Shown here in pieces: positions 7,217-18,468 of a stretch of 64,000 nt of DNA. The notes beneath the pieces were generated by a model that was given only the letters and a program-made list of their open reading frames with translations, did not search any database and was not told the DNA's origin. The position numbers and the translations under genes were made by a program. This stretch comes from Gammaproteobacteria bacterium. GTDB taxonomy: Bacteria; Pseudomonadota; Gammaproteobacteria; Ga0077536. The stretch spans positions 496,001 through 560,000 of the forward strand of contig JAJFJQ010000028.1 of assembly GCA_021773835.1 (NCBI GenBank), in the 5' to 3' direction. Numbering within the stretch: position 1 is the first letter of the stretch; the number at the start of each line of letters is the position of its first letter.

Positions 7217-7249
7217 GACGGAATTCGAGCGCAGGGGTTACTAAATTTG

Positions 7250-10138
7250 GTGGACTCGGCATTTACTGCTGGTCAACGTTGGATCAGTAATACCGAGTCG
7301 GAACTCGGTCTCGGCATTGTCGTCGAATACGCCGATCGACGAGTAACTTTAAGTTTCCCAGCTGCAGGCGAGCGGCGCGTTTATGCGAGCGACAATGCGC
7401 CGCTAAGCCGCGTGATGTATGAAGTCGGCGAAACAATTAGAAGCGCGGACGGTGTTGCGCTCCGGGTCACCGAGCGCCACGAGGCCAACGGTTGCTACAT
7501 CTATGGCGGCACCGCTGAAGACGGTAGCGAGGGGATCCTGCCGGAGCTCGACCTCGATAGTTTCGTTCAGTTTAGTCGACCGCTCGATCGCCTCTTCGCC
7601 GGCCAGATCGACAAGAACAATAGCTTTCTTTTGCGCGCCGAATCGCTGCGTCTACAACACCGACACCAACAATCACAGGCTTACGGCCTCGTCGGCCCTC
7701 GGGTGCAGTTGTTACCTCATCAATTTTATATCGCAAACCAAGTCGCAGCGCGTCACCACCCACGAGTCTTATTGGCCGATGAGGTTGGTCTCGGAAAAAC
7801 CATAGAAGCGGGCTTGATCTTGCACCAACGGCTGATGAGTGGTCGCGCCGACCGCGTGTTGATTGTGGTCCCCGATAGCCTGATCCATCAATGGTTAGTA
7901 GAGATGTTGAGGCGCTTCAACCTGCACTTCACCATCCTCGATGAAGAGACCTGCGTCGCGATCGAAGAGCGCGATGAGGACGCAGAAGAAGACATCGACG
8001 CCGAGTTTGAGAACCCCTTTGACAGCGCCCAACTCATTTTGATTGGGCTGTCGCTATTGGTTGAACACCCAGAGCGCCAGGCGCAGGCCTTGGCCTCACA
8101 ATGGGATTTGATGGTTGTCGATGAAGCCCATCATTTAAGTTGGAATGAGCAACAAGTTAGCCCAGCCTATCGCGCAATGGAGGCGCTCTCACAGGCGGCA
8201 TCGGGACTCGTGTTGATCACCGCGACGCCGGAGCAACTCGGGGTCGAGGGACACTTCGCCCGGCTACGCCTACTCGATCCGGATCGTTATCACGACTTAC
8301 ATGAATTTCGTGCCGAGGAAGACAATTACCGACCGATAGCAGAGCTCGTCGGAGAATTACAAGATACTGCAGCGATCGAATCAATTCCCAACGATGCGGT
8401 TCTACAGCGTTCTCTCGGTGAGTACCTAGGGCCGGCTAAGGTCGACGAAATTAGCACGGCGGATCTGCCGCATAGAAAGGTGTTAATTTCCGAAGCGATT
8501 AAAAACCTTCTCGATCGTCATGGCACTGGTCGCGTCTTGTATCGCAATTGCCGCGACACGGTACAAGGTTTCCCCGAGCGTAAAGTTTTTCCCTATCCGC
8601 TCGTAGCCCCGGCCGAATATTTGGCCAGAAGTGTCAATACAGCACCCGCTGATCTGCTTAACCCAGAGGTCTTGCTGGGAGAAGCATGGCTCACGCTTGA
8701 CCCGAGAGTCGAATGGCTGGACGCATGGTTGCACGAGCGTCGTGAACAAAAAACCTTGGTGATATGCGCTCAAGCAGCAACAGCGATCGCTTTGGAAGAG
8801 CACCTAAGAGTGCGACGCGGGATCCGAACGGCCGTGTTCCATGAAGGACTAAACCTGGTTGCCCGGGACCGAGCTGCCGCCTACTTTGCCGACGAACAAG
8901 AAAACGCAGAAGCACTCGTGTGTTCCGAAATTGGCAGCGAGGGACGAAATTTTCAATTTGCCCATAATTTAGTGTTGTTCGATATTCCGCTGAATCCTGA
9001 CCTCCTGGAACAACGGATCGGGCGCCTGGATCGTATCGGCCAACGGAATATTGTGCAGATACACGTGCCCTACTATGTAGCCAGCGCCGCCGAGGTGCTT
9101 TTCAAGTGGTACGACGAAGGCCTAGACGCGTTTGAGGAGGTCTTTTCTGCCGGTCGAGTGTTGGCTGAGCAATTTGGAGACGGGTTGAGATCTGCTATTA
9201 GCGATCCGTCGAATGAAGCTGCTCGCGATGCGCTCATCCAGGTTACCCGCGAACAAGCGGCGCTAACGCGTGAAGCGCTGCGCCATGGCCGTGACCGGCT
9301 GCTCGAACTCAATTCTTTTGACGAAGCCGAGGCATCCGAGATCATCGAAGCGGTGGCGGAGTCCAGCCGGAAACTCGAACTAGCAGACTACATGGATGGC
9401 GTGTTCGACTTTTTCGGCGTCGAACAGCAAACACATGGGTCGCTCAGCGTCATCGTGCATCCTGGGGATCATATGCTGTGCCACAATTTCCCCGGTCTCC
9501 CGGAGGGTGGGGTAACCGGAACCTATGACCGTGCCGAGGCCCTATCAAAGGAAGACATGCACTTTCTGACCTGGGAGCACCCTATGGTGACCGGTGCCAT
9601 GGACATGATGCTCTCCGGAGAATTTGGCAATGCAACCCTGTGCGCGCTGAAGGCGCCGTTTTTGAAGCCCGGGACGCTATACCTCGAAGCGATCTTCGTT
9701 GTGAGCTGTGCTGCGCCACGCTATCTGCAGCTGCCACGCTACATTCCACAGGCGACGATCCGCGTGGTAATTGATAGGGAACATAAGGATCTTACCAATG
9801 TGTTGACTCAGGAACGGATCAACGCGGTAGTCGAACCGATTAAAAAACGAGTCGCACACGAAGTTGCAAAGCATGCTCGGTCTGAGATCAATGCCATGGC
9901 CAATCGTGCAACCGAGATCGCGGAGACCCAACTTGTTCCGCTAGTCGATATTGCGCGCCACGACATTGATGCGGAGCAACGCGCGGAACTCGAACGGCTG
10001 CAAGCATTAGCAGCCGTCAATCCGAACATACGGACCGAGGAAATTGAATTTCGAAAGGACTTTTCAGCCGAACTGGTTGCACACATTGAGCACGCGCAGT
10101 TGCGGTTGGATGCGGTTCGCGTTGGGCTGGCTACATAA
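7250..10138 (+). CDS. rapA: RNA polymerase-associated ATPase RapA
   Basis: SWI2/SNF2-type ATPase that binds RNA polymerase and recycles it after termination. The 962-residue protein follows E. coli RapA closely end to end: FTAGQRWISNTESELGLG (Tudor-like N-terminal domain), RVLLADEVGLGKTIEAG (Walker A, near residue 175), VVDEAHHL (DEAH box), LLITATPEQLGVEGHFARLR, SEIGSEGRNFQFAHN and PDLLEQRIGRLDRIGQ (helicase motifs IV-VI), and AVNPNIRTEEIEF near the end. The start is GTG 7250, directly after an in-frame TTG. It stands alone. RapA is largely confined to Gammaproteobacteria, which helps place the organism. Confidence 0.97.
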   Translation: MDSAFTAGQRWISNTESELGLGIVVEYADRRVTLSFPAAGERRVYASDNAPLSRVMYEVGETIRSADGVALRVTERHEANGCYIYGGTAEDGSEGILPELDLDSFVQFSRPLDRLFAGQIDKNNSFLLRAESLRLQHRHQQSQAYGLVGPRVQLLPHQFYIANQVAARHHPRVLLADEVGLGKTIEAGLILHQRLMSGRADRVLIVVPDSLIHQWLVEMLRRFNLHFTILDEETCVAIEERDEDAEEDIDAEFENPFDSAQLILIGLSLLVEHPERQAQALASQWDLMVVDEAHHLSWNEQQVSPAYRAMEALSQAASGLVLITATPEQLGVEGHFARLRLLDPDRYHDLHEFRAEEDNYRPIAELVGELQDTAAIESIPNDAVLQRSLGEYLGPAKVDEISTADLPHRKVLISEAIKNLLDRHGTGRVLYRNCRDTVQGFPERKVFPYPLVAPAEYLARSVNTAPADLLNPEVLLGEAWLTLDPRVEWLDAWLHERREQKTLVICAQAATAIALEEHLRVRRGIRTAVFHEGLNLVARDRAAAYFADEQENAEALVCSEIGSEGRNFQFAHNLVLFDIPLNPDLLEQRIGRLDRIGQRNIVQIHVPYYVASAAEVLFKWYDEGLDAFEEVFSAGRVLAEQFGDGLRSAISDPSNEAARDALIQVTREQAALTREALRHGRDRLLELNSFDEAEASEIIEAVAESSRKLELADYMDGVFDFFGVEQQTHGSLSVIVHPGDHMLCHNFPGLPEGGVTGTYDRAEALSKEDMHFLTWEHPMVTGAMDMMLSGEFGNATLCALKAPFLKPGTLYLEAIFVVSCAAPRYLQLPRYIPQATIRVVIDREHKDLTNVLTQERINAVVEPIKKRVAHEVAKHARSEINAMANRATEIAETQLVPLVDIARHDIDAEQRAELERLQALAAVNPNIRTEEIEFRKDFSAELVAHIEHAQLRLDAVRVGLAT

Positions 10139-10153: not shown

Positions 10154-10474
10154 TTAGTTTTGCTCAAGCACAGTTGCCGGAGCGCTTGAAGTGTTGTTCG
10201 AGCCCGTGGCTGCCTCGCCGTCCGCAAGTTCGACCGCTCGTTTATCTTTATACTCGCGATAAGTTTCTCGTTGTCCGCCCAATGCTTGTGGGTCGCAGCG
10301 TTCTCGATGTGTGCGCGCATCGCCTTCGAAGTGGGATCGATCGCAGTCATATTGTTTCGCCGTTTCAAACATCGATTCCAATAGCTGATCTTTGGAACAC
10401 CCGACGGCGGATAGTGAAATCGCTACGGCAATAATCATCGCGGCGATTATTCTGACGCTCTGTATCAACATCAT
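10154..10474 (-). CDS. Small putative lipoprotein
   Basis: Unrecognised 106-residue protein with a lipoprotein signal peptide: a hydrophobic helix RIIAAMIIAVAISLSAVGC with the lipobox Cys at residue 26. The mature part is hydrophilic and charged (KQYDCDRSHFEGDARTHRERC) with two further cysteines and a low-complexity Ser/Thr/Ala C-terminus. I chose ATG 10474 because GAGGAAG lies 6 nt before it; the longer frame to 10606 lacks a ribosome site. It converges with rapA 15 nt away. It is the last gene of the minus-strand accessory block. Function unknown. Confidence 0.65.
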   Translation of the reverse strand: MMLIQSVRIIAAMIIAVAISLSAVGCSKDQLLESMFETAKQYDCDRSHFEGDARTHRERCDPQALGGQRETYREYKDKRAVELADGEAATGSNNTSSAPATVLEQN

Positions 10475-10634
10475 TTGCTTCCTCGCTTCACAATAGTTTA
10501 TCGCAATGAGATTTGAGTTATCCAACTTGGTGTGGTGTGAGAAAAGTGATTCTGCATTTGGCAGCCGTTTTGTGTCGACATTCTGCGGTAACAGCGTGCT
10601 AGCCATCCGTCAGAACGCCCCGTCCTTCACCGAT

Positions 10635-10976
10635 TTAGCGGCCCTTGCTTGCCGCTTCAGTATCGAGGCGATCCAAGGCACGTCGGTTCAGAACTAAAAA
10701 CACCGTTCCCCACACAGCCACGGATACAAAGATGATAATTGATATCACGACAGGATCGCCGTAAGCAAAATTGAATCTATCGACTAATACGTAGTTTAAA
10801 CCCAGTGCGGTAAATACAGTCGCGGCGAAGATATCCGACCACAGTAACCAGTATCGTCTCGTGGTACAGAATTTAAACGTAGTGGAACAGTGCGGGCAAT
10901 TATGTTTGCCAGAAATGGACTTCAAATACCGTGACCAGCTTAGCTCCACCAGCGATTTGCAAGTCGGGCAAATCAT
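10635..10976 (-). CDS. Small zinc-ribbon membrane protein
   Basis: Unrecognised 113-residue protein. The N-terminus carries a CPTC...CPHC pair (residues 3-6 and 27-30) that should form a treble-clef or zinc-ribbon site. Two membrane helices follow (about 44-62 and 75-95), then a short basic tail. The family resembles the many small 'zinc ribbon plus two helices' proteins found in accessory DNA; no function is known. It is A+T-rich relative to rapA and sits in the minus-strand block. A hairpin (10991-11010) lies 15 nt upstream of its start. Confidence 0.6.
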   Translation of the reverse strand: MICPTCKSLVELSWSRYLKSISGKHNCPHCSTTFKFCTTRRYWLLWSDIFAATVFTALGLNYVLVDRFNFAYGDPVVISIIIFVSVAVWGTVFLVLNRRALDRLDTEAASKGR

Positions 10977-10990
10977 ACGAGGTTAGGTCG

Positions 10991-11010
10991 CCGCGACTGC
11001 ATCGTCGCGG
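10991..11010. repeat. Perfect 7-bp inverted repeat
   Basis: CCGCGAC, a 6-nt loop and GTCGCGG, between the MAPEG-like gene and the zinc-ribbon gene. A GTTAGGT heptamer (10982-10988) lies next to it. There is no T-run, so it is not a standard terminator on either strand; it might be an attenuating hairpin or part of a decayed recombination site. Confidence 0.4.
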
Positions 11011-11147
11011 TTCGTGTGCGGCGGGTTGAAGCCAAAAATCCCAAGTTTCATATTAGTGATCAGCCAGAATTTCGCCTATCGTTGACTGACCGCGGTTCGT
11101 GGCCAGTTACAGTGGGTTCCGTAACGCGGAGATAGCTTCTCGGCGAA

Positions 11148-11582
11148 TTATAAATTCATCCCCGAGCCATCCAAACTCAAATACGAGCGCACCCAAATTA
11201 TTACCAAAACAACATTGCTGGTGGCGAAGATAAGTAGTCTATGGACCACATTGTTGTACGTAAGATGAACCAAACTATGCAGAATTCTGCAACCGACATA
11301 TGCCCAAGCTAAGTAAAGCGTTAAATGGTTCGTCCCCTGCGTTACGTACAGCATTAGGCATGCGACGTAAAACAGAAGTGGCAGTTCTAAAAGATTCATG
11401 TAGTTCCGGTTCGGAATGCTCACGACACCCGGGACATTGTCCGACTCCCCAAGCTTGAAATCGTCGACTACGACTTCCTTTCGGAATGCTGCTTTGAAGC
11501 GCTGATACGGGATCAGCAGCAAAACAAGTAGGGTCCATCCGGCAAGAGCCGTCATTGGATATAGTGTTAACGTTTGATCCAT
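11148..11582 (-). CDS. MAPEG family membrane protein
   Basis: Integral membrane protein of 144 residues, four helices, MAPEG fold (membrane-associated proteins in eicosanoid and glutathione metabolism). Seen: a first helix ALAGWTLLVLLLIPYQRF, then the family segment RNYMNLLELPLLFYVACLMLYV (N..E..P.F), and WAYVGCRILHSLVHLTYNNV (R..HS..H). Bacterial members are mostly uncharacterised, some with glutathione transferase activity. ATG 11582 is preceded by AGAGGAT; the longer frame to 11681 would overlap the next gene and lacks such a site. In the cassette-like block; function beyond the family is unknown. Confidence 0.82.
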   Translation of the reverse strand: MDQTLTLYPMTALAGWTLLVLLLIPYQRFKAAFRKEVVVDDFKLGESDNVPGVVSIPNRNYMNLLELPLLFYVACLMLYVTQGTNHLTLYLAWAYVGCRILHSLVHLTYNNVVHRLLIFATSNVVLVIIWVRSYLSLDGSGMNL

Positions 11583-11620
11583 CCGAACGATCCTCTGGTT
11601 TCGATGCTTGTAGTGGTCCG

Positions 11621-11983
11621 TTACACGTCGGCAACTATTTGTCGCCCCGTTGTTTCGACCTTGTCTAGCGACGTATCCCAATTCGCAAGCTCAGATCGGT
11701 CGATCTCTTCAGCGGAGGCATCTCGTAGAAGCTCCTTCAGATCGGTTCTTAGTTTTTCGATCGCCCAACCGAACGGGTCTGCATGCACGATCGGAACTAA
11801 TGGGTTTTTTCGGTAAGAGAAAGCGGTGTGATAGTGGGGTTTGTTTTCGAAACAATCGAACCGCAATATCTCCTCTATGCTTCCATCTACCGGTCCGAAC
11901 ACATGTATTGAGAGTCCACGGTCCGTTTCCAGATCTCGGAACTCTAGGGAGATTTTGAGTCTTCCGATGTCGTAGTTGTGCAT
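11621..11983 (-). CDS. Hypothetical protein
   Basis: Unrecognised 120-residue soluble acidic protein with no signal peptide or membrane helix. It begins MHNYDIGRLKISLEFRDLET and has an antiparallel-strand look (ISLEFRD, LSIHVFGPV, ILRFDCFE) followed by two helices (WAIEKLRTDLKELLRDASA). Shine-Dalgarno AAGGAG lies 10 nt before the ATG. The stop TAA overlaps a plus-strand GTTA, as is common where a cassette gene runs into its recombination site, but the heptamer (GTGTAAC) is off consensus. Function unknown. Confidence 0.6.
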   Translation of the reverse strand: MHNYDIGRLKISLEFRDLETDRGLSIHVFGPVDGSIEEILRFDCFENKPHYHTAFSYRKNPLVPIVHADPFGWAIEKLRTDLKELLRDASAEEIDRSELANWDTSLDKVETTGRQIVADV

Positions 11984-12031
11984 TAGCTACGCTCCTTTCG
12001 CTGTTTACGTTTACGAAGCGGCCGTTAACAG

Positions 12032-12075
12032 TAACGTCTGGCATGGAATCGAATGAAGTATTCGATCGAGAGTTA
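12032..12075. repeat. Imperfect stem-loop; possible decayed attC
   Basis: Between genes 11621 and 12105. GTAAC (12032) pairs with GTTAC (12071-12075), and ATCGAAT-gaagt-ATTCGAT (12048-12066) forms a perfect inner stem. The AAC/GTT ends and the nested arms resemble a short attC site, but the outer heptamers do not match RYYYAAC/GTTRRRY, so this is a weak candidate only. Confidence 0.3.
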
Positions 12076-12104
12076 CCGTCCTCAAGTCGATAGCTTTCGT
12101 ACCA

Positions 12105-12551
12105 CTAGACCTTCTGTACCCGCATCACCGGATGCCGATGTGCAATTTTTTCATATTCTTCCTCTCGGCTTCCAGGTTGCACCGCAAAAAAGCGCTGTAC
12201 TGTCTTGTTGTAACGTGACAGATACACACGCAAAACGTCAATTTTCTGAGGTCCCTCTATTTCATCAACGCGATATAGCGCGTTGTCAGCTCCTCGCTTT
12301 AACCATAGCTCACCGCTACTTCTAATGTTATGTATCCACTGCGTTTCGCCTCTCGGTGAGACCAAAAAGGTTTCTCCGTCGATATAAGTCAGATTGACGG
12401 GTGTCGAATAGCGTTTACCAGTTTTCCGGCCAAGGGCCGAGAGCTGGTAATTATGGCTTAGCCCGATCCCGCGCCCTGCGAAAAAACCGAAAACTTTATT
12501 GAACCAGCGTTCGGCTATTGTCGGTGTAACGATTTCTGGATCCTTTGACAT
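12105..12551 (-). CDS. Deazaflavin-dependent nitroreductase (DDN) family protein
   Basis: Split beta-barrel protein of 148 residues from the F420/flavin-binding DDN family. The signature is visible: LSALGRKTGKRYSTPVNLTYIDGETFLVSPRGETQWIHNIRSSGELWLKRG (G..SG..R..P......G....S.G.....W..N). Classical members use coenzyme F420, but many proteobacterial relatives occur in genomes not known to make it, so the cofactor is uncertain. It begins 2 nt after the stop of the upstream gene (12554), with GAGG before the ATG, so the two are probably co-translated and may travel as one cassette. Confidence 0.82.
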   Translation of the reverse strand: MSKDPEIVTPTIAERWFNKVFGFFAGRGIGLSHNYQLSALGRKTGKRYSTPVNLTYIDGETFLVSPRGETQWIHNIRSSGELWLKRGADNALYRVDEIEGPQKIDVLRVYLSRYNKTVQRFFAVQPGSREEEYEKIAHRHPVMRVQKV

Positions 12552-12553
12552 AG

Positions 12554-12967
12554 TTAATCAACCTCATCGTCCATCCATCCTTTGAAAGGCACCCATCGCA
12601 AATATCTGTCAGTTGAACCGTCCGGTTGAAGCCGTAGAAATCTCCTGCCTTCTTTCCGGTAGAAATCGCCACATTTGCATTGTGATTCATATTCCCCGTT
12701 CCTATGGCGTACGTACTTGTAGTCGGAATCAATGCACTTACCATTTCTACAACGAGGTCGCCTCGGGATCCCTCCCCAAAAAAAGTTCTCTAGATAAGAT
12801 AATGCATTCAATGCCGTTGGCGGGAGTACTCCGGCAAGTACGACCCCAATAACCAACCCGCCCCATGAAAACATGTCGTAGCCCCAAGACGCAGCGAACC
12901 ATATCGACGTTGCCCAAGCCAGGACTACTAGTAGTTCAATCAGTGTCGCGCCTCGTATGCGACTCAT
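12554..12967 (-). CDS. Hypothetical membrane protein with Cys cluster
   Basis: Unrecognised 137-residue protein. Two hydrophobic helices (LIELLVVLAWATSIWFAAS, then GGLVIGVVLAGVLPPTAL) are followed by a basic soluble tail with CRNGKC and QCKCG, a possible metal site. A GTG at 13012 would extend it, but that falls inside the attC-like site; ATG 12967 lies 11 nt after the site's outer GTTAGGC heptamer, the spacing expected of a cassette gene, so I chose it. No strong Shine-Dalgarno is visible. Paired with the DDN gene downstream. Confidence 0.6.
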   Translation of the reverse strand: MSRIRGATLIELLVVLAWATSIWFAASWGYDMFSWGGLVIGVVLAGVLPPTALNALSYLENFFWGGIPRRPRCRNGKCIDSDYKYVRHRNGEYESQCKCGDFYRKEGRRFLRLQPDGSTDRYLRWVPFKGWMDDEVD

Positions 12968-12978
12968 GAAATTATGCA

Positions 12979-13089
12979 GCCTAACGTCGAGTTGAGTCGC
13001 ACGTGACAGCACAATTTAGTGGAGTGACAGTCTTCATGGGCGGAAGAAAAGTCCGCTGCAACGCGCCAGACTCCAAGCGCTGGTTAGGT
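12979..13089 (-). repeat. attC-like recombination site (integron cassette)
   Basis: 111-nt imperfect palindrome between two minus-strand genes. On the minus strand it opens with ACCTAAC (RYYYAAC) and closes with GTTAGGC (GTTRRRY). Inside these, TTGGAGTC in one arm pairs with TTGAGTC of the other, leaving one unpaired G, as in attC L boxes, and a further hairpin (GCGGA...TCCGC, about 13041-13055) lies in the centre. The TAA stop of gene 13084 falls within the first heptamer and the next gene starts 11 nt after the last one. The arms also resemble known sites such as that of aadA7. Orientation agrees with the genes. Confidence 0.72.
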
Positions 13090-13521
13090 TGAAACCGTAA
13101 GATAGACATAGACGGTAGCGCCGATCGAGCTCAGGACGCTTCGTACTGCATGTAAATGACCCCATTTTTTTTGTAGACCTAGCGTCTCTATTGATGTGCG
13201 ATCGCGATCAGGATCTAGCAGCAGCTTATTCGTTGGCATGATTCCTATAAATGTAAACGGGATAACTAAGAATATTAACAGCGCTCCGACAAGCCACAGT
13301 GATCTCCCCCCGTTTAATGTGACAGCAATGCCAGCAATCGTGGCGACGATGGCTAGAGAGACCTGCATTGTGGTCGCGCGATGGTAGCTGGGTCCGAATA
13401 CCGTCGCAGCCAATTCCGTGCCGCATTCCAATCTCGCGGGGTGCTCCGCAACGTTAATATATATCGCCGCACCTGCAAACATCGAGCATGACAGCGTCGC
13501 AAGTATTTCTAGGATTCCCAT
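13084..13521 (-). CDS. DUF1772-like membrane protein
   Basis: Integral membrane protein of 145 residues with four helices. Seen: first helix with SCSMFAGAAIYINVAEHPARL, helices near 55-72 and 75-98, and a final helix after KKWGHLHAVRSVLSSIGATVYVYL; the 'W..LH..R' segment is typical of DUF1772 (anthrone oxygenase-like) proteins. Catalytic role is unproven for most members. Its stop codon overlaps the attC-like site downstream; upstream only 42 nt separate it from the gene at 13564, with no full site between them. Confidence 0.72.
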   Translation of the reverse strand: MGILEILATLSCSMFAGAAIYINVAEHPARLECGTELAATVFGPSYHRATTMQVSLAIVATIAGIAVTLNGGRSLWLVGALLIFLVIPFTFIGIMPTNKLLLDPDRDRTSIETLGLQKKWGHLHAVRSVLSSIGATVYVYLTVST

Positions 13522-13563
13522 TGCTGCTCTTCCTATTGGTAAGCGATCAGCTCGAGCGATTTG

Positions 13564-14082
13564 TTAAGGCGTATTTTCGTTTGATGATTTACTAATTGTC
13601 GGGATCGTTCCCGATTGATCGATATTCGACATTTGCTCCTCCATATAAGTAACGAACTCTTTCGAGAAGCGACTCTTATCTCTTGACCACCACTCCTTCA
13701 CACCAGGGAGGCTGCTCACATACAGTGGCATCTCATAGGCGAGTTTCTCCCACATGGCTTCGTCCAGTTGCCCATTCAGGTGTTGATGGTAAGCAAAGTC
13801 GAAGTGATTATAGTAGGCGAAAAACCAGGTACTAAATCGAAAGCGCTCTTCGTCTGACATCGCGTCAGGCTCGTAACTTCCTTTCATGGCAATTGCCGCT
13901 AATTCGCCATTGTTAGCAAACATATAATTAGCGTCGGAATTCGCGGCGATTAAATTTTGGGTCGTTTGATATCGCGTCGCTTTTGTATTCTGTCGGATTT
14001 GCACCGCCACGTAACCAAGCGATACCACAACGGCGATTGCGCCAACAATCTCCGCTATCCCTATTACTGCATCCCAGTTCAT
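13564..14082 (-). CDS. MNWD-type small membrane-anchored protein, paralogue 1
   Basis: 172-residue protein of unknown function. One N-terminal helix (AEIVGAIAVVVSLGYVAVQI) is followed by IRQNTKATR and a helical cytoplasmic domain (EERFRFSTWFFAYYNHFDFAYHQHLNGQLDE...WEKL). It is paralogous with the genes at 15671 and 16181: all start MNW(D/E), share ExVGAxAVVxxLxYxxxQxR, and have an acidic-aromatic domain of similar plan. Such proteins are common in marine bacterial genomes without assigned role (recollection, not searched). The gene end overlaps a near-consensus core (CCTTAAC on the minus strand). Confidence 0.72.
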   Translation of the reverse strand: MNWDAVIGIAEIVGAIAVVVSLGYVAVQIRQNTKATRYQTTQNLIAANSDANYMFANNGELAAIAMKGSYEPDAMSDEERFRFSTWFFAYYNHFDFAYHQHLNGQLDEAMWEKLAYEMPLYVSSLPGVKEWWSRDKSRFSKEFVTYMEEQMSNIDQSGTIPTISKSSNENTP

Positions 14083-14349
14083 CGTTCCGTTAGCTGCTGC
14101 ATGTTTCTAAAAACCTAAAAACGGGGTTAAAAACGGGGTCGGAGTAAGTTATGGGGGTCGAATAAGCTGTCCCTAATAACAACGGAGATTAAATTAGAAG
14201 GTAAGGGCTAATTTTAGGACGAATAATGACAAGGACACCGAGTAATTACATCGCGGTTATGCCGTGTCATGCGGTGCAGCGCGCACTCGACACGCAAGCG
14301 GTCGAACCGTTGCGATGAGGTAATTGACTCCGACCCCTTTTTCCTTTTT
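14083..14349. repeat. REP-like inverted-repeat element in a gene gap
   Basis: The gap between genes 13564 and 14350 holds GGGGTCGGAGT (14135-14145) and its exact reverse complement ACTCCGACCCC (14327-14337), each flanked by an A- or T-rich run, with about 180 nt between. A tandem of the 12-mer TAAAAACGGGGT starts near 14116. This layout is like the GGGGTCxGAGTxAATT palindromes that accompany REP-associated transposases or form small non-autonomous elements. No transposase frame lies inside. T-rich tracts outside the right arm (14338-14349) may also help terminate transcripts reading plus. Confidence 0.6.
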
Positions 14350-14817
14350 CTATGCCCCTTTCGCCATTTCTTCCATTTTCTTTAACGTCTCCGGTGACCA
14401 AACTTGGCTCGAGTCTAGCCACCCGTCAAATGCTATTGCGTCGTCCGGAAGTTCAAACCATGGTTGTTTACTTCGCGTGAAAATATGATATGTCGGTGGC
14501 GCCAATGTCGGATCGTTTAGTGTCCCACCCCTAACTGCAATGATCGGAAGTTCCACAAAGTGGTATTTGTTCCAGATGACTGTGGCACATTTCGAGCACG
14601 CATGGGCATCGTATCCAGAACCGCTTGGTGTGGGGTTCGTGACCGTAGATATGTTGCCTTCAATCTCAAAATCTGCTTCTGCGACACCGAGTAATATCAC
14701 GAACGCAGAGCCCGAATATCGTTGGCAATCGGCACAATGACAAGCATGGACAAATAACGGTTGATCTCTAATCTCATAATGGACTTCACCACAAATGCAA
14801 CTACCGATTAACGCCAT
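14350..14817 (-). CDS. GFA (glutathione-dependent formaldehyde-activating) family protein
   Basis: 155-residue zinc protein of the GFA/CENP-V family. Zinc ligands are visible: CIC (residues 7-9), CHCADC (26-31) and HACSKC in the middle, with the family segment G...FVILLG and the WNKYHF / RGGTLND region that follows. Some members add glutathione to formaldehyde, but most are of unknown substrate. AGGAGGAA directly precedes the ATG. The gene is in the accessory block; its 3' side abuts the REP-like element. Confidence 0.88.
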   Translation of the reverse strand: MALIGSCICGEVHYEIRDQPLFVHACHCADCQRYSGSAFVILLGVAEADFEIEGNISTVTNPTPSGSGYDAHACSKCATVIWNKYHFVELPIIAVRGGTLNDPTLAPPTYHIFTRSKQPWFELPDDAIAFDGWLDSSQVWSPETLKKMEEMAKGA

Positions 14818-15670
14818 TTGTTCCTCCTGTAATATTCCGGTATGGGAATTTCACTCATGTTTAGGATTTCTGATGTGGCCTAATGGTCAGCTTCAGCATC
14901 TTAATACTCATTGAGGCCTCTTCGGGGACGTTCAGGCTCAACCATCAAACTGAACGTCCTATATGTTAGAGGGTTTCTAGACTCGACGTCCACAAGGGGA
15001 CCTCGATGAGCGTTAGCAGCACAACTCGTCAACATTATTGCGGTATGAGTTTGTACGCGAAGACCATGTACGTGTCCATCAATAATGCGTACAGCGAAAT
15101 CGTTCTGCATCGCAATATAAAAAGTGAATCACATAGTCTAGCCGCCGCGGTCGAACCCAATCGTAAAGACCTCGACATCGGCGTCCAGCGTTTGTTCGTC
15201 GCAGCTTTGATTCCTGTGTCGCACCTTTTCTTGCGTCTTTCAGCCGTGATATTGGCTCGCCGACAGGTGCGCCCTGGAAAATATTCCCTTCGACCTCGGT
15301 CATGCACTTTAGGTGAATGCGATCCTTGGCGGTGAGGAGAACGAATCCAAGGATGGGGGAGGTAGAGCAACACAGGAGCAGCGGCCGAGAATGACCGCAT
15401 TGAATTCAAGAAAATTACGCGAGTACTCAAAGGCGGTATTGTCCCTCAGATCTACGCATATCGCTCCAAGATGTGTGCTACTGCTCGCGCAGCGGAAGCG
15501 TCCTTGGGGTGTTACCGCCATTGTATTTTGATCCGTAGTCCGCCCCTGTTACAGGACCCTTACTAGCGCACGCAACACTGCAGGACAACCGCTAAAGCTC
15601 GACGGGTGCTTTTCGATATTGATTTCAGGTAGCCCCATAGGAGTTAGGCAGCACCAGACCGCTTGTAATT
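14818..15670. other. Gene-poor stretch within the accessory block
   Basis: About 850 nt with only overlapping short frames on both strands (for example minus 15079-15303 and 14901-15110) that have no ribosome site, no recognisable domain and implausible composition. It may hold a decayed gene: three minus-strand frames follow one another without overlap continuity. A GTTAGGC heptamer at 15643-15649, 22 nt past the stop of gene 15671, looks like one end of a cassette site, but no matching partner with paired arms was found. A palindrome CCTGTTACAGG lies near 15545. Confidence 0.45.
14926..14959. repeat. Perfect 10-bp inverted repeat
   Basis: GGACGTTCAG, a 14-nt loop and CTGAACGTCC, lying about 110 nt upstream of the GFA gene in the gene-poor gap. 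There is no T-run after it on either strand. It could be an operator-like palindrome or a remnant of a mobile element. Confidence 0.45.
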
Positions 15671-16162
15671 CTAACCGTCGAATACATCTCCTACCCTCTT
15701 GAAGTCGTCGGCTGGTTGGAGCCCCTCGACAAACTTTTGAAAATCGGGTGTAAAGATGTCTCGTCGAACCTTCCAATAATGCTGCGCTCCGGGAGCTGTC
15801 GCGTATGATGCGATGAAACGGCGCCAACCCTCCCACGCATCCTCTCCTAGCGTTCCATGCAGGTAGTGATAGTGAACATTCTCGAAGGCTTTAAAAAGAT
15901 CGTACATCATGAACGCGAAATCGAGTCTCTGCTGCTCACTTAGTGTTGCGTAGTCCTCAAGCCCTTGTGAGAAAACTTCCGTTAAGCCGGAAGCAAGCAT
16001 TTGCCGCGTGAATTGACGAAAATCACGTGTTGTTCCGTCATGGGTGGCCACTCGAACTTGACGTGTATTTTGACGTATCTGAATTGCCACATAGACGAGC
16101 GAAAGTACTACCGCCACGGCGCCCACGGCTTCTGAGATTGTTCTAACAGCTTCCCAGTTCAC
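15671..16162 (-). CDS. MNWE-type small membrane-anchored protein, paralogue 2
   Basis: 163-residue protein of unknown function in the same family as 13564 and 16181. The N-terminal helix (SEAVGAVAVVLSLVYVAIQI) is followed by RQNTRQVRVATHDGTTRDFR and a helical domain (LDFAFMMYDLFKAFENVHYHYLHGTLGEDAWEGWRRFI). The last helix segment, HYWKVRRDIFTPDFQKFVEGL, corresponds to WWSRDKSRFSKEFVTYMEEQ in paralogue 1. Start is GTG with GGAG 9 nt upstream. GTTAGAC (minus strand) lies 17 nt before the start. Confidence 0.72.
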   Translation of the reverse strand: MNWEAVRTISEAVGAVAVVLSLVYVAIQIRQNTRQVRVATHDGTTRDFRQFTRQMLASGLTEVFSQGLEDYATLSEQQRLDFAFMMYDLFKAFENVHYHYLHGTLGEDAWEGWRRFIASYATAPGAQHYWKVRRDIFTPDFQKFVEGLQPADDFKRVGDVFDG

Positions 16163-16180
16163 GAATATCTCCGGTGCCGT

Positions 16181-16726
16181 CTAACGTTGATCCACGGATT
16201 CGCCGGTACCTTCATTTTCTTTAGAGCTCCGTCTACTAGATTGTTTTTCAATTAGCGTTTGAACGTCTGCGACAAACTCCTCGGAGATATTTGCCAAGAA
16301 TGGCATCATTCGGATCCATTCTTCATGCGCTTTCGGATTCGCACTAATTACCGCAGCAACGTTGAGTGCATCGTTTGATTCTTTATGTCCAGAAGCAGAA
16401 TAGAGGCCGCTACGATAAGCAGTTACTGCAACGTAAAACAGTTCTTCAAAATAGGTCGAAAAGATAAGACTCTCTTGTGCGGTAAGAGCTTCAGAACCAC
16501 GTGCCTTGATCAAAACGGCAGATACATCAGCGGTATCAAGTAGTGACCCACGCCATCGCGAGTACATTTCCATTACCGCGTTCGTAGCTTGTTGCGAGGC
16601 GTGCTTAGATGTTTCCTCTGTCGCAATTCGAGTCAGCCGAGTTTGAATCGAAAGATAAACTAGCGTGATAACTACAGCGATAGCTCCAACAATTTCTGCA
16701 AGTGTTCCTAGTGCTTCCCAGTTCAC
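16181..16726 (-). CDS. MNWE-type small membrane-anchored protein, paralogue 3
   Basis: 181-residue protein, the most divergent of the three MNW(D/E) paralogues. The N-terminal helix is AEIVGAIAVVITLVYLSIQT; the soluble part has SKHASQQATNAVMEMYSRW, FSTYFEELFYVAVTAYRSGLYS and EEWIRMMPFLANISEEFVADV. The C-terminal 20 residues are low-complexity and charged. Start is GTG 17 nt downstream of a GTTAGGT heptamer (16743-16749), and its own stop codon is the TAG of a GTTAGAC heptamer (16179-16185). Function unknown. Confidence 0.7.
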   Translation of the reverse strand: MNWEALGTLAEIVGAIAVVITLVYLSIQTRLTRIATEETSKHASQQATNAVMEMYSRWRGSLLDTADVSAVLIKARGSEALTAQESLIFSTYFEELFYVAVTAYRSGLYSASGHKESNDALNVAAVISANPKAHEEWIRMMPFLANISEEFVADVQTLIEKQSSRRSSKENEGTGESVDQR

Positions 16727-17211: not shown

Positions 17212-18468
17212 ATGCGCTTTGGCGTGTTTTACGAATTGCAGTTGCCGCGACCATGGGCCGACGGTGATGAACACCGATTGTTTAAAGATGCCCTGGAACA
17301 GGTTGCGTTGGCCGACCGACTGGGTTTCGACTACGCGTGGCAGGTCGAGCACCATTTTCTCGACGAGTATTCACATTCCTCGGCACCGGAAGTTTTTCTC
17401 GCCGCCGCTGCAGTGCAAACCAAAAATATCCGCATCGGCCATGGTATTCGTCAGGTTATCCCCAACTACAATCACCCCGCGCGTACGGCTGAGGGGCTTG
17501 CGACCTTGGACTTGATTTCCGATGGCCGAGTCGAGTTCGGTATTGGTGAGGGCGCAACCCGGCTTGAGCTCGGTGCGTTTGGAATCTCGGCAAAGACCAA
17601 ACGCGCACGGGCACTCGAGGCTGCGGAGCAGATCTGCAACATGATGGTATTGACGCCCTATCCGGGTTTCGACGGCGAGGGGTTTTCCATGCCGTGCCGC
17701 AACGTATTGCCGAAGCCGTTGCAGACCCCGCATCCACCTTTGTGGATGGCATGCACGAATCGCGAGACGATCAAAGTTGCAGCGCAGAATGGCATCGGTG
17801 CGTTAGCGTTTTCGTTTTTGGACCCAGATGAAGCGCGCACCTGGTCGAAGATCTATTACGACATAATAAAGAGCGATCAATGCGTACCCTTGGGCTGGTC
17901 GGTGAACGCCAATCTGGCCATGGTCTCAGCATTTTCGATGCATGAAGATCGTTCCGAGGCGATCCGTCGCGGGCAGGATCATTTCGAGTTTTTCCGTTAT
18001 TCGCAGCAAAAGTTGGTTGCCGATGACTTTGTCCCAGGCCATAGCAACATGTGGGAGGAGTTTTTGGAAAAACGCGGCGATGCATCGGATCGCCTGATCA
18101 AGGCCGCGCTGGCGCGGGGCGAGTTTGATGGGGCCGGGATCGGTACACCAGATGATATGCGTGCCCATATAGCCAACCTGCAAGAGGCTGGGGTCGATCA
18201 AGTCGTATTCCTGCAGCAAGCAGGACGCAATTCGCACGAGAATATTTGCGCATCGCTCGAACTATTCGCAGACACCGTGATGCCGCAATTCGTCGCCGAT
18301 GTCGAGGAGCGTGAAGCGAATAAGCAAACGGAACTCGCACCTTATATTGAGGCAGCATTGGCGCGTAGACAGCCTATGCAAGCGCTAGCCGAGGCGGATG
18401 TCCCGGTCGTTAAAGCGGCGGTGAAGGCTTCTGTGCCATCGCATCGGACCGCAGCCGGCAAAACCTAG
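17212..18468 (+). CDS. LLM class flavin-dependent oxidoreductase (bacterial luciferase-like)
   Basis: 418-residue member of the luciferase-like monooxygenase superfamily (TIM barrel, reduced FMN). Seen: FGVFYELQLPRPW at the start, the family segment LADRLGFDYAWQVEHHFLDEYSHSSAPEVFLAAAAVQTKNIRIGHGI, and LDLISDGRVEFGIGEGATRLELGAFG. It uses FMNH2 and O2 to hydroxylate an unknown substrate. GAGGAG precedes the ATG. The C-terminal 60 residues are Ala/Arg-rich and poorly conserved in type. It converges with pbpC. A second LLM gene at 47190 begins similarly (EVGAFYLP...EHHF) but is only distantly alike. Confidence 0.88.
   Translation: MRFGVFYELQLPRPWADGDEHRLFKDALEQVALADRLGFDYAWQVEHHFLDEYSHSSAPEVFLAAAAVQTKNIRIGHGIRQVIPNYNHPARTAEGLATLDLISDGRVEFGIGEGATRLELGAFGISAKTKRARALEAAEQICNMMVLTPYPGFDGEGFSMPCRNVLPKPLQTPHPPLWMACTNRETIKVAAQNGIGALAFSFLDPDEARTWSKIYYDIIKSDQCVPLGWSVNANLAMVSAFSMHEDRSEAIRRGQDHFEFFRYSQQKLVADDFVPGHSNMWEEFLEKRGDASDRLIKAALARGEFDGAGIGTPDDMRAHIANLQEAGVDQVVFLQQAGRNSHENICASLELFADTVMPQFVADVEEREANKQTELAPYIEAALARRQPMQALAEADVPVVKAAVKASVPSHRTAAGKT

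Follow-up and report, generated by a model that had tools for sequence, protein, structure and literature searches.

The choice between the two strands of an attC site is directed by extrahelical bases according to the available excerpt of PMC2727003, in which a change of G to C at the unpaired base lowered integration by IntI1 2.7-fold and hardly altered cassette deletion. The same excerpt reports a variable terminal structure and assigns it no role in strand selection. For the unpaired position, the portion of PMC3053210 at hand gives G in most attC sites and names blaVIM-2 as the sole cassette with C, while attCdfrA1 is written there as A-N7-8-C. In excerpts of other published work, cassette arrays distant from intI are described as common in Xanthomonas (PMC12444791), the partial loss of an attC site is stated to yield fused cassettes (PMC4670013), and the default for a CALIN is set at two attC sites with the remark that single-attC cases can be true positives (PMC9024848).

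Here we describe a site in a window of 64,000 nucleotides, this being the whole stretch of DNA that was analysed, which lies on contig C21 of a genome of 6.14 Mb in 74 contigs. Judged from its sequence, the segment 12979-13089 is an attC site with cassettes on the minus strand, because a covariance model built without it gave 57.8 bits on that strand, over the full length, against 8.1 bits on the other; recombination would then involve the plus strand, as bottom strand. The minus-strand cassette orientation put forward in a preliminary description of the locus is borne out by the same scores. It is very probable, in our judgement, that this is a diverged yet complete attC site of the genome's own kind, and that it forms the 3' end of a cassette with a gene of the anthrone-oxygenase family (Table 1). 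Like the CALINs and the fused cassettes with truncated attC that appear in the excerpts of PMC9024848, PMC12444791 and PMC4670013, the locus has cassette genes and attC but no integrase gene beside them, and as in the fused cassettes of these excerpts, the partial loss of an attC site would have joined two genes. It differs from a CALIN, for which IntegronFinder 2.0 by default requires two or more attC sites and no intI, in having one complete attC and a half site.

Table 1. Position of the attC site, its boxes and the surrounding genes in the window.
Feature	Position	Strand	Remarks and basis
attC site	12979..13089	-	Cassette strand minus, bottom strand plus; own-genome covariance model
R'' box ACCTAAC	13083..13089	-	Holds TAA of ORF 13084-13521; sequence
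L'' box TTGGAGTC	13069..13076	-	With extra base (13073 or 13074); sequence, L-helix scan, fold
L' box GACTCAA	12992..12998	-	Sequence
R' box GTTAGGC	12979..12985	-	Bottom strand GCCTAAC then G, as in 28 aligned sites (invariant columns)
Half attC, R''-L'' arm only	13537..13569	-	Other arm missing; stop of ORF 13564-14082 inside
ORF, cassette ending in attC	13084..13521	-	Pfam Anthrone_oxy, E 2e-14
ORF, ATG 11 nt past R'	12554..12967	-	Sequence
ORF, weak DUF4760 match	13564..14082	-	Paralogues in attC-bearing contigs of the genome
Minus-strand ORF run, probable decayed cassette array	10154..16726	-	Between rapA and luciferase-like gene
rapA	7247-10138	+	
Luciferase-like gene	17212-18468	+	

Read on the minus strand from 13089 to 12979, the site takes the form ACCTAAC-CAGCGC-TTGGAGTC ... 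GACTCAA-CTCGAC-GTTAGGC. Complementary boxes of the RYYYAAC ... GTTRRRY form were found, with the R'' and R' heptamers complementary at six of seven positions, together with complementary L boxes in which L'' is one base longer than L', giving a helix of 7 bp plus one extra base, which is G on the minus and C on the plus strand. Either C of 13073-13074 on the plus strand can be the extra base, and it lies in the arm adjoining the stop of the ORF at 13084-13521. The pairings CCTAAC/GTTAGG and TTG(G)AGTC/GACTCAA, and the placing of an extra base in the arm next to the gene stop, had been proposed in the preliminary description and are present as proposed. The site separates two genes: the TAA of the first lies inside R'', and the in-frame ATG of the next ORF is at 12967. 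Cassette junctions are arranged in this way, with a stop in R'' and a start after R'. The product of this next ORF starts with MSRIRGATLIELLVV, which is similar to the leader of type IV prepilins, and it matches the Pfam family N_methyl with an E-value of 0.0069, which is below the cut-off.

The covariance model was built from 28 aligned attC sites of the same genome, which are 28 of 36 candidate rows and were identified from their box pattern and context rather than experimentally. The dropped rows comprise alternative boundaries of sites that were used (L050 1495-1637, L052 1213-1310, L053 2027-2116 and L056 10589-10726), three rows of L055 that were judged by eye not to be attC, and L056 16959-17111, which looks interrupted. 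The E-value of the window site is 1e-12 over the window and 9.9e-11 over the genome, and the site outscores two of the 28 training sites (56.7 and 49.3 bits). At this score the site resembles the host attC sites, themselves defined by pattern, in both sequence and structure. The second-best match in the window reached 14.4 bits and no second complete attC was found there by the model. The genome-wide scoring covered 150 of 1033 candidates and gave 103 matches, an incomplete count in which some sites appear on both strands. Rfam at gathering thresholds gave no match in the window.

A chance inverted repeat or the hairpin of a transcription terminator could also be read into this segment and would suit its unremarkable fold energy; we regard this as extremely improbable in view of the E-value over the window, the strand preference and the lack of a T run after the stem in the sequence. 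The boxes are also rarely produced by chance. When 200 copies of the window were generated by a first-order Markov model, heptamers at a distance of 60-150 bases with six or more complementary positions formed 1.12 pairs per copy; pairs that also had a 7-bp L helix with no more than one bulge numbered 0.025 per 64-kb copy. The thresholds were chosen after the site was known. The window itself contains two heptamer pairs that pass, with the L helix occurring at 12979-13089 only. Taken singly, the arms of the site are weak by position matrix: the 5' arm scores 10.6 bits, a level reached 15 times in 6.4 Mb of one-strand Markov sequence, and the 3' arm scores 13.1 bits, a level reached 4 times in that length. 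This counts against the attC reading.

The extra base occupies the position, the 16th base of the cassette strand in L'', at which all 28 model sites carry either C (17 sites) or G (11 sites), a count made by position and not by pairing site by site, and this supports the interpretation given in the preliminary description. On the bottom strand the same count becomes G in 17 of 28 and C in 11 of 28, and the unpaired base of the window site is C on this strand, not the commoner G. That extrahelical bases direct strand choice, which the preliminary description had stated, is indeed published (PMC2727003, in excerpt). A bottom-strand C has likewise been described already and called rare: the portion of PMC3053210 at hand has mostly G and gives C for blaVIM-2 and attCdfrA1. 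In this genome it is common. The attC sites of dfrA1 and blaVIM-2 share the extrahelical C with the window site and differ from it in sequence and in the spacing to the other bulge, as compared without alignment. The unpaired base obeys known rules, and what is mildly unusual is the number of C-bearing sites in the genome.

In most respects the site is an ordinary integron attC. It is alike to the attC sites on C4, C9, C13, C15, C17 and C57 in its length of about 111 nt, its R and L boxes, the position of the extra base in L'' and the C before the GTTA of R', whereas it differs from them in its weaker stem, in a second bulge that has two bases and not one in the minimum-energy structure of the bottom strand, and in its L'' box, of which GGATCAACC is the common form. 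The attC at C55:164988-165098 has the same L'' box as the window site, the same length of 111 nt and the same bottom-strand C as extra base. However, its bottom strand folds more strongly (-29.2 kcal/mol against -14.5 kcal/mol for the window site) and it is accompanied by other attC sites near the contig end, whereas the window site stands alone.

The R boxes and the L boxes are joined in the unconstrained minimum-energy structures of both strands. The hairpin linking the heptamers, on which the preliminary description depended, is therefore predicted to form, at a stability no better than that of shuffled sequences: the z-scores were -0.77 for the minus and +0.23 for the plus strand, and -0.99 and +0.45 with other shuffles. 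The bottom-strand z was -1.82 or lower in 27 of the 28 other sites. Since the bottom strand of the window site folds weakest of all 29 sites, its earlier designation as best-formed holds only within the window. Fold energy was discarded as an attC test at this site, where it is uninformative.

These folds bear on whether the site could still be used. It may be a dead fossil, descended from an attC but no longer usable by any integrase owing to decay of the stem section that links the L boxes to the loop, and we see about an even chance of this. The weak bottom-strand fold agrees with such a fate, as do the bottom-strand L-box pairs, with probabilities of 0.22 to 0.52 and the G beside the bulge split between two partners, and the neighbouring attC at 13537-13569, which is only a half site. 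On the other hand, the boxes, their spacing and the extra base are retained, the mean R-box pairing probability on the bottom strand is 0.82, and the terminal structure is variable among attC sites with no strand-selection role given in the excerpt of PMC2727003.

The sole integron integrase above the family cut-off (TIGR02249) is found on contig C4 with 472 bits. None of the twelve TIGR02249 matches of the genome falls on C21, and a complete integron, with intI beside the array, is absent from this contig. Sites of the attC type were found on C4, C9, C13, C15, C16, C17 and C57, near the ends of C20, C47, C55 and C63 and, a few, inside C12, C41 and C68. A plasmid search with 2.1 kb around the window site gave no match.

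The run of minus-strand ORFs around the site was represented by eleven ORFs hand-picked from an ORF list that also has overlapping and plus-strand ORFs. Pfam matches above the cut-off in this run were MAPEG, DUF7700, F420H2_quin_red (just above), Anthrone_oxy and GFA. The ORFs 13564-14082, 15671-16162 and 16181-16726 are mutually paralogous and have paralogues on attC-bearing stretches of the genome, where homologues of the GFA ORF are also found. The half attC at 13537-13569 scores 22.0 bits by position matrix, and no match that high was found in 6.4 Mb of Markov sequence; in real sequence amounting to 332,492 bases over both strands, the best match had 18.5 bits and the runner-up 10.2. This half attC, together with the paralogues that nearby ORFs have on contigs with attC sites, suggests that a cassette array around the site has decayed, and because the half attC lacks its other arm, 13084-13521 and 13564-14082 would form one fused cassette.

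Alternatively, the C4 integrase may have inserted a single cassette into an attG site outside any integron, the other ORFs not being cassettes, as would fit one complete attC in the window, an integrase on another contig and the mention of attG insertion in the excerpt of PMC12444791. We consider this improbable, given that a half attC lies one gene upstream, that attC-bearing contigs contain homologues of the GFA ORF and of three other ORFs of the window, and that no junction was identified.

On the decayed-array reading, the site would be left over from a cassette array in which most attC sites are gone. The plus strand, if exposed in single-stranded form, could fold, and an integron integrase, for example the one encoded on C4, could act in trans, cleaving inside the AAC of R' and thereby moving either the gene 13084-13521 or the fused two-gene cassette 13084-14082, with the extra base in L'' telling the integrase which strand to take. 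The efficiency would be expected to be low, given the decay elsewhere in the stem. We think it rather unlikely that both parts of a fuller proposal hold, namely that the decayed array, without an integrase of its own, feeds the fused cassette 13084-14082 through the C4 integrase in trans and that this integrase accepts C as readily as G. That the host integrase takes a bottom-strand C as readily as G is suggested by the mixture of 17 G and 11 C among its sites, against a 2011 study in which C is rare. A single leftover attC of this kind, skipped by default tools, is recognisable with the other attC sites of the genome as model, and would point to the decay of a cassette array in a genome where an integrase persists.

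Relatives of the 13084-13521 protein were found at eleven loci (10 genome contigs and one from G011). The covariance model found attC at one of the eleven, in Zhongshania sp. BJYM1, with two matches ahead of the gene, and the TAA of this homologue lies within ACCTAAC. Among the ten loci viewed by eye (L079 left out), no RYYYAAC box was observed at the stop of the remaining relatives. Based on the model matches and the inspection of stops, the cassette layout occurs in one other genome and is not visible in most. No empty site was seen in the relatives, because the DNA upstream of the luciferase-like gene is different in G001, G009 and G010, and in G003 contig ends intervene: a contig stops 80 bases from rapA, and the luciferase-like gene is close to the start of a contig. 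The single attC among eleven loci and the lack of an empty site count against our reading of the site, as do the unremarkable fold energy and the lack of a second complete attC in the array.

A few further observations were made on arms and gene families. The 18.5-bit match in real sequence resembles a 5' attC arm and is located in the relative G001 (L062 2366-2398, minus strand), where it has no partner. In the window, 16172-16204 on the minus strand (CCGTGGATCAACGTTAGAC) has L'' fused straight to R' and is perhaps a collapsed attC; its score is within chance and we do not claim it. A family of small proteins starting with (M/V)NWEA.., with a weak likeness to DUF4760, has many copies on the attC-bearing stretches of the genome, and its members include the three paralogous ORFs of the window as well as copies in L056, L053, L054, L052, L064, L067 and L068. 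Finally, strong attC 3' arms without a 5' arm were observed in a genome list of half sites that mixes true halves, short sites and contig ends; two of them, L067 9095-9121 (minus strand, 36.7 bits) and L069 2320-2346 (plus strand, 34.0 bits), lie inside the long contigs C12 and C68 and are taken as other decayed arrays or half sites.
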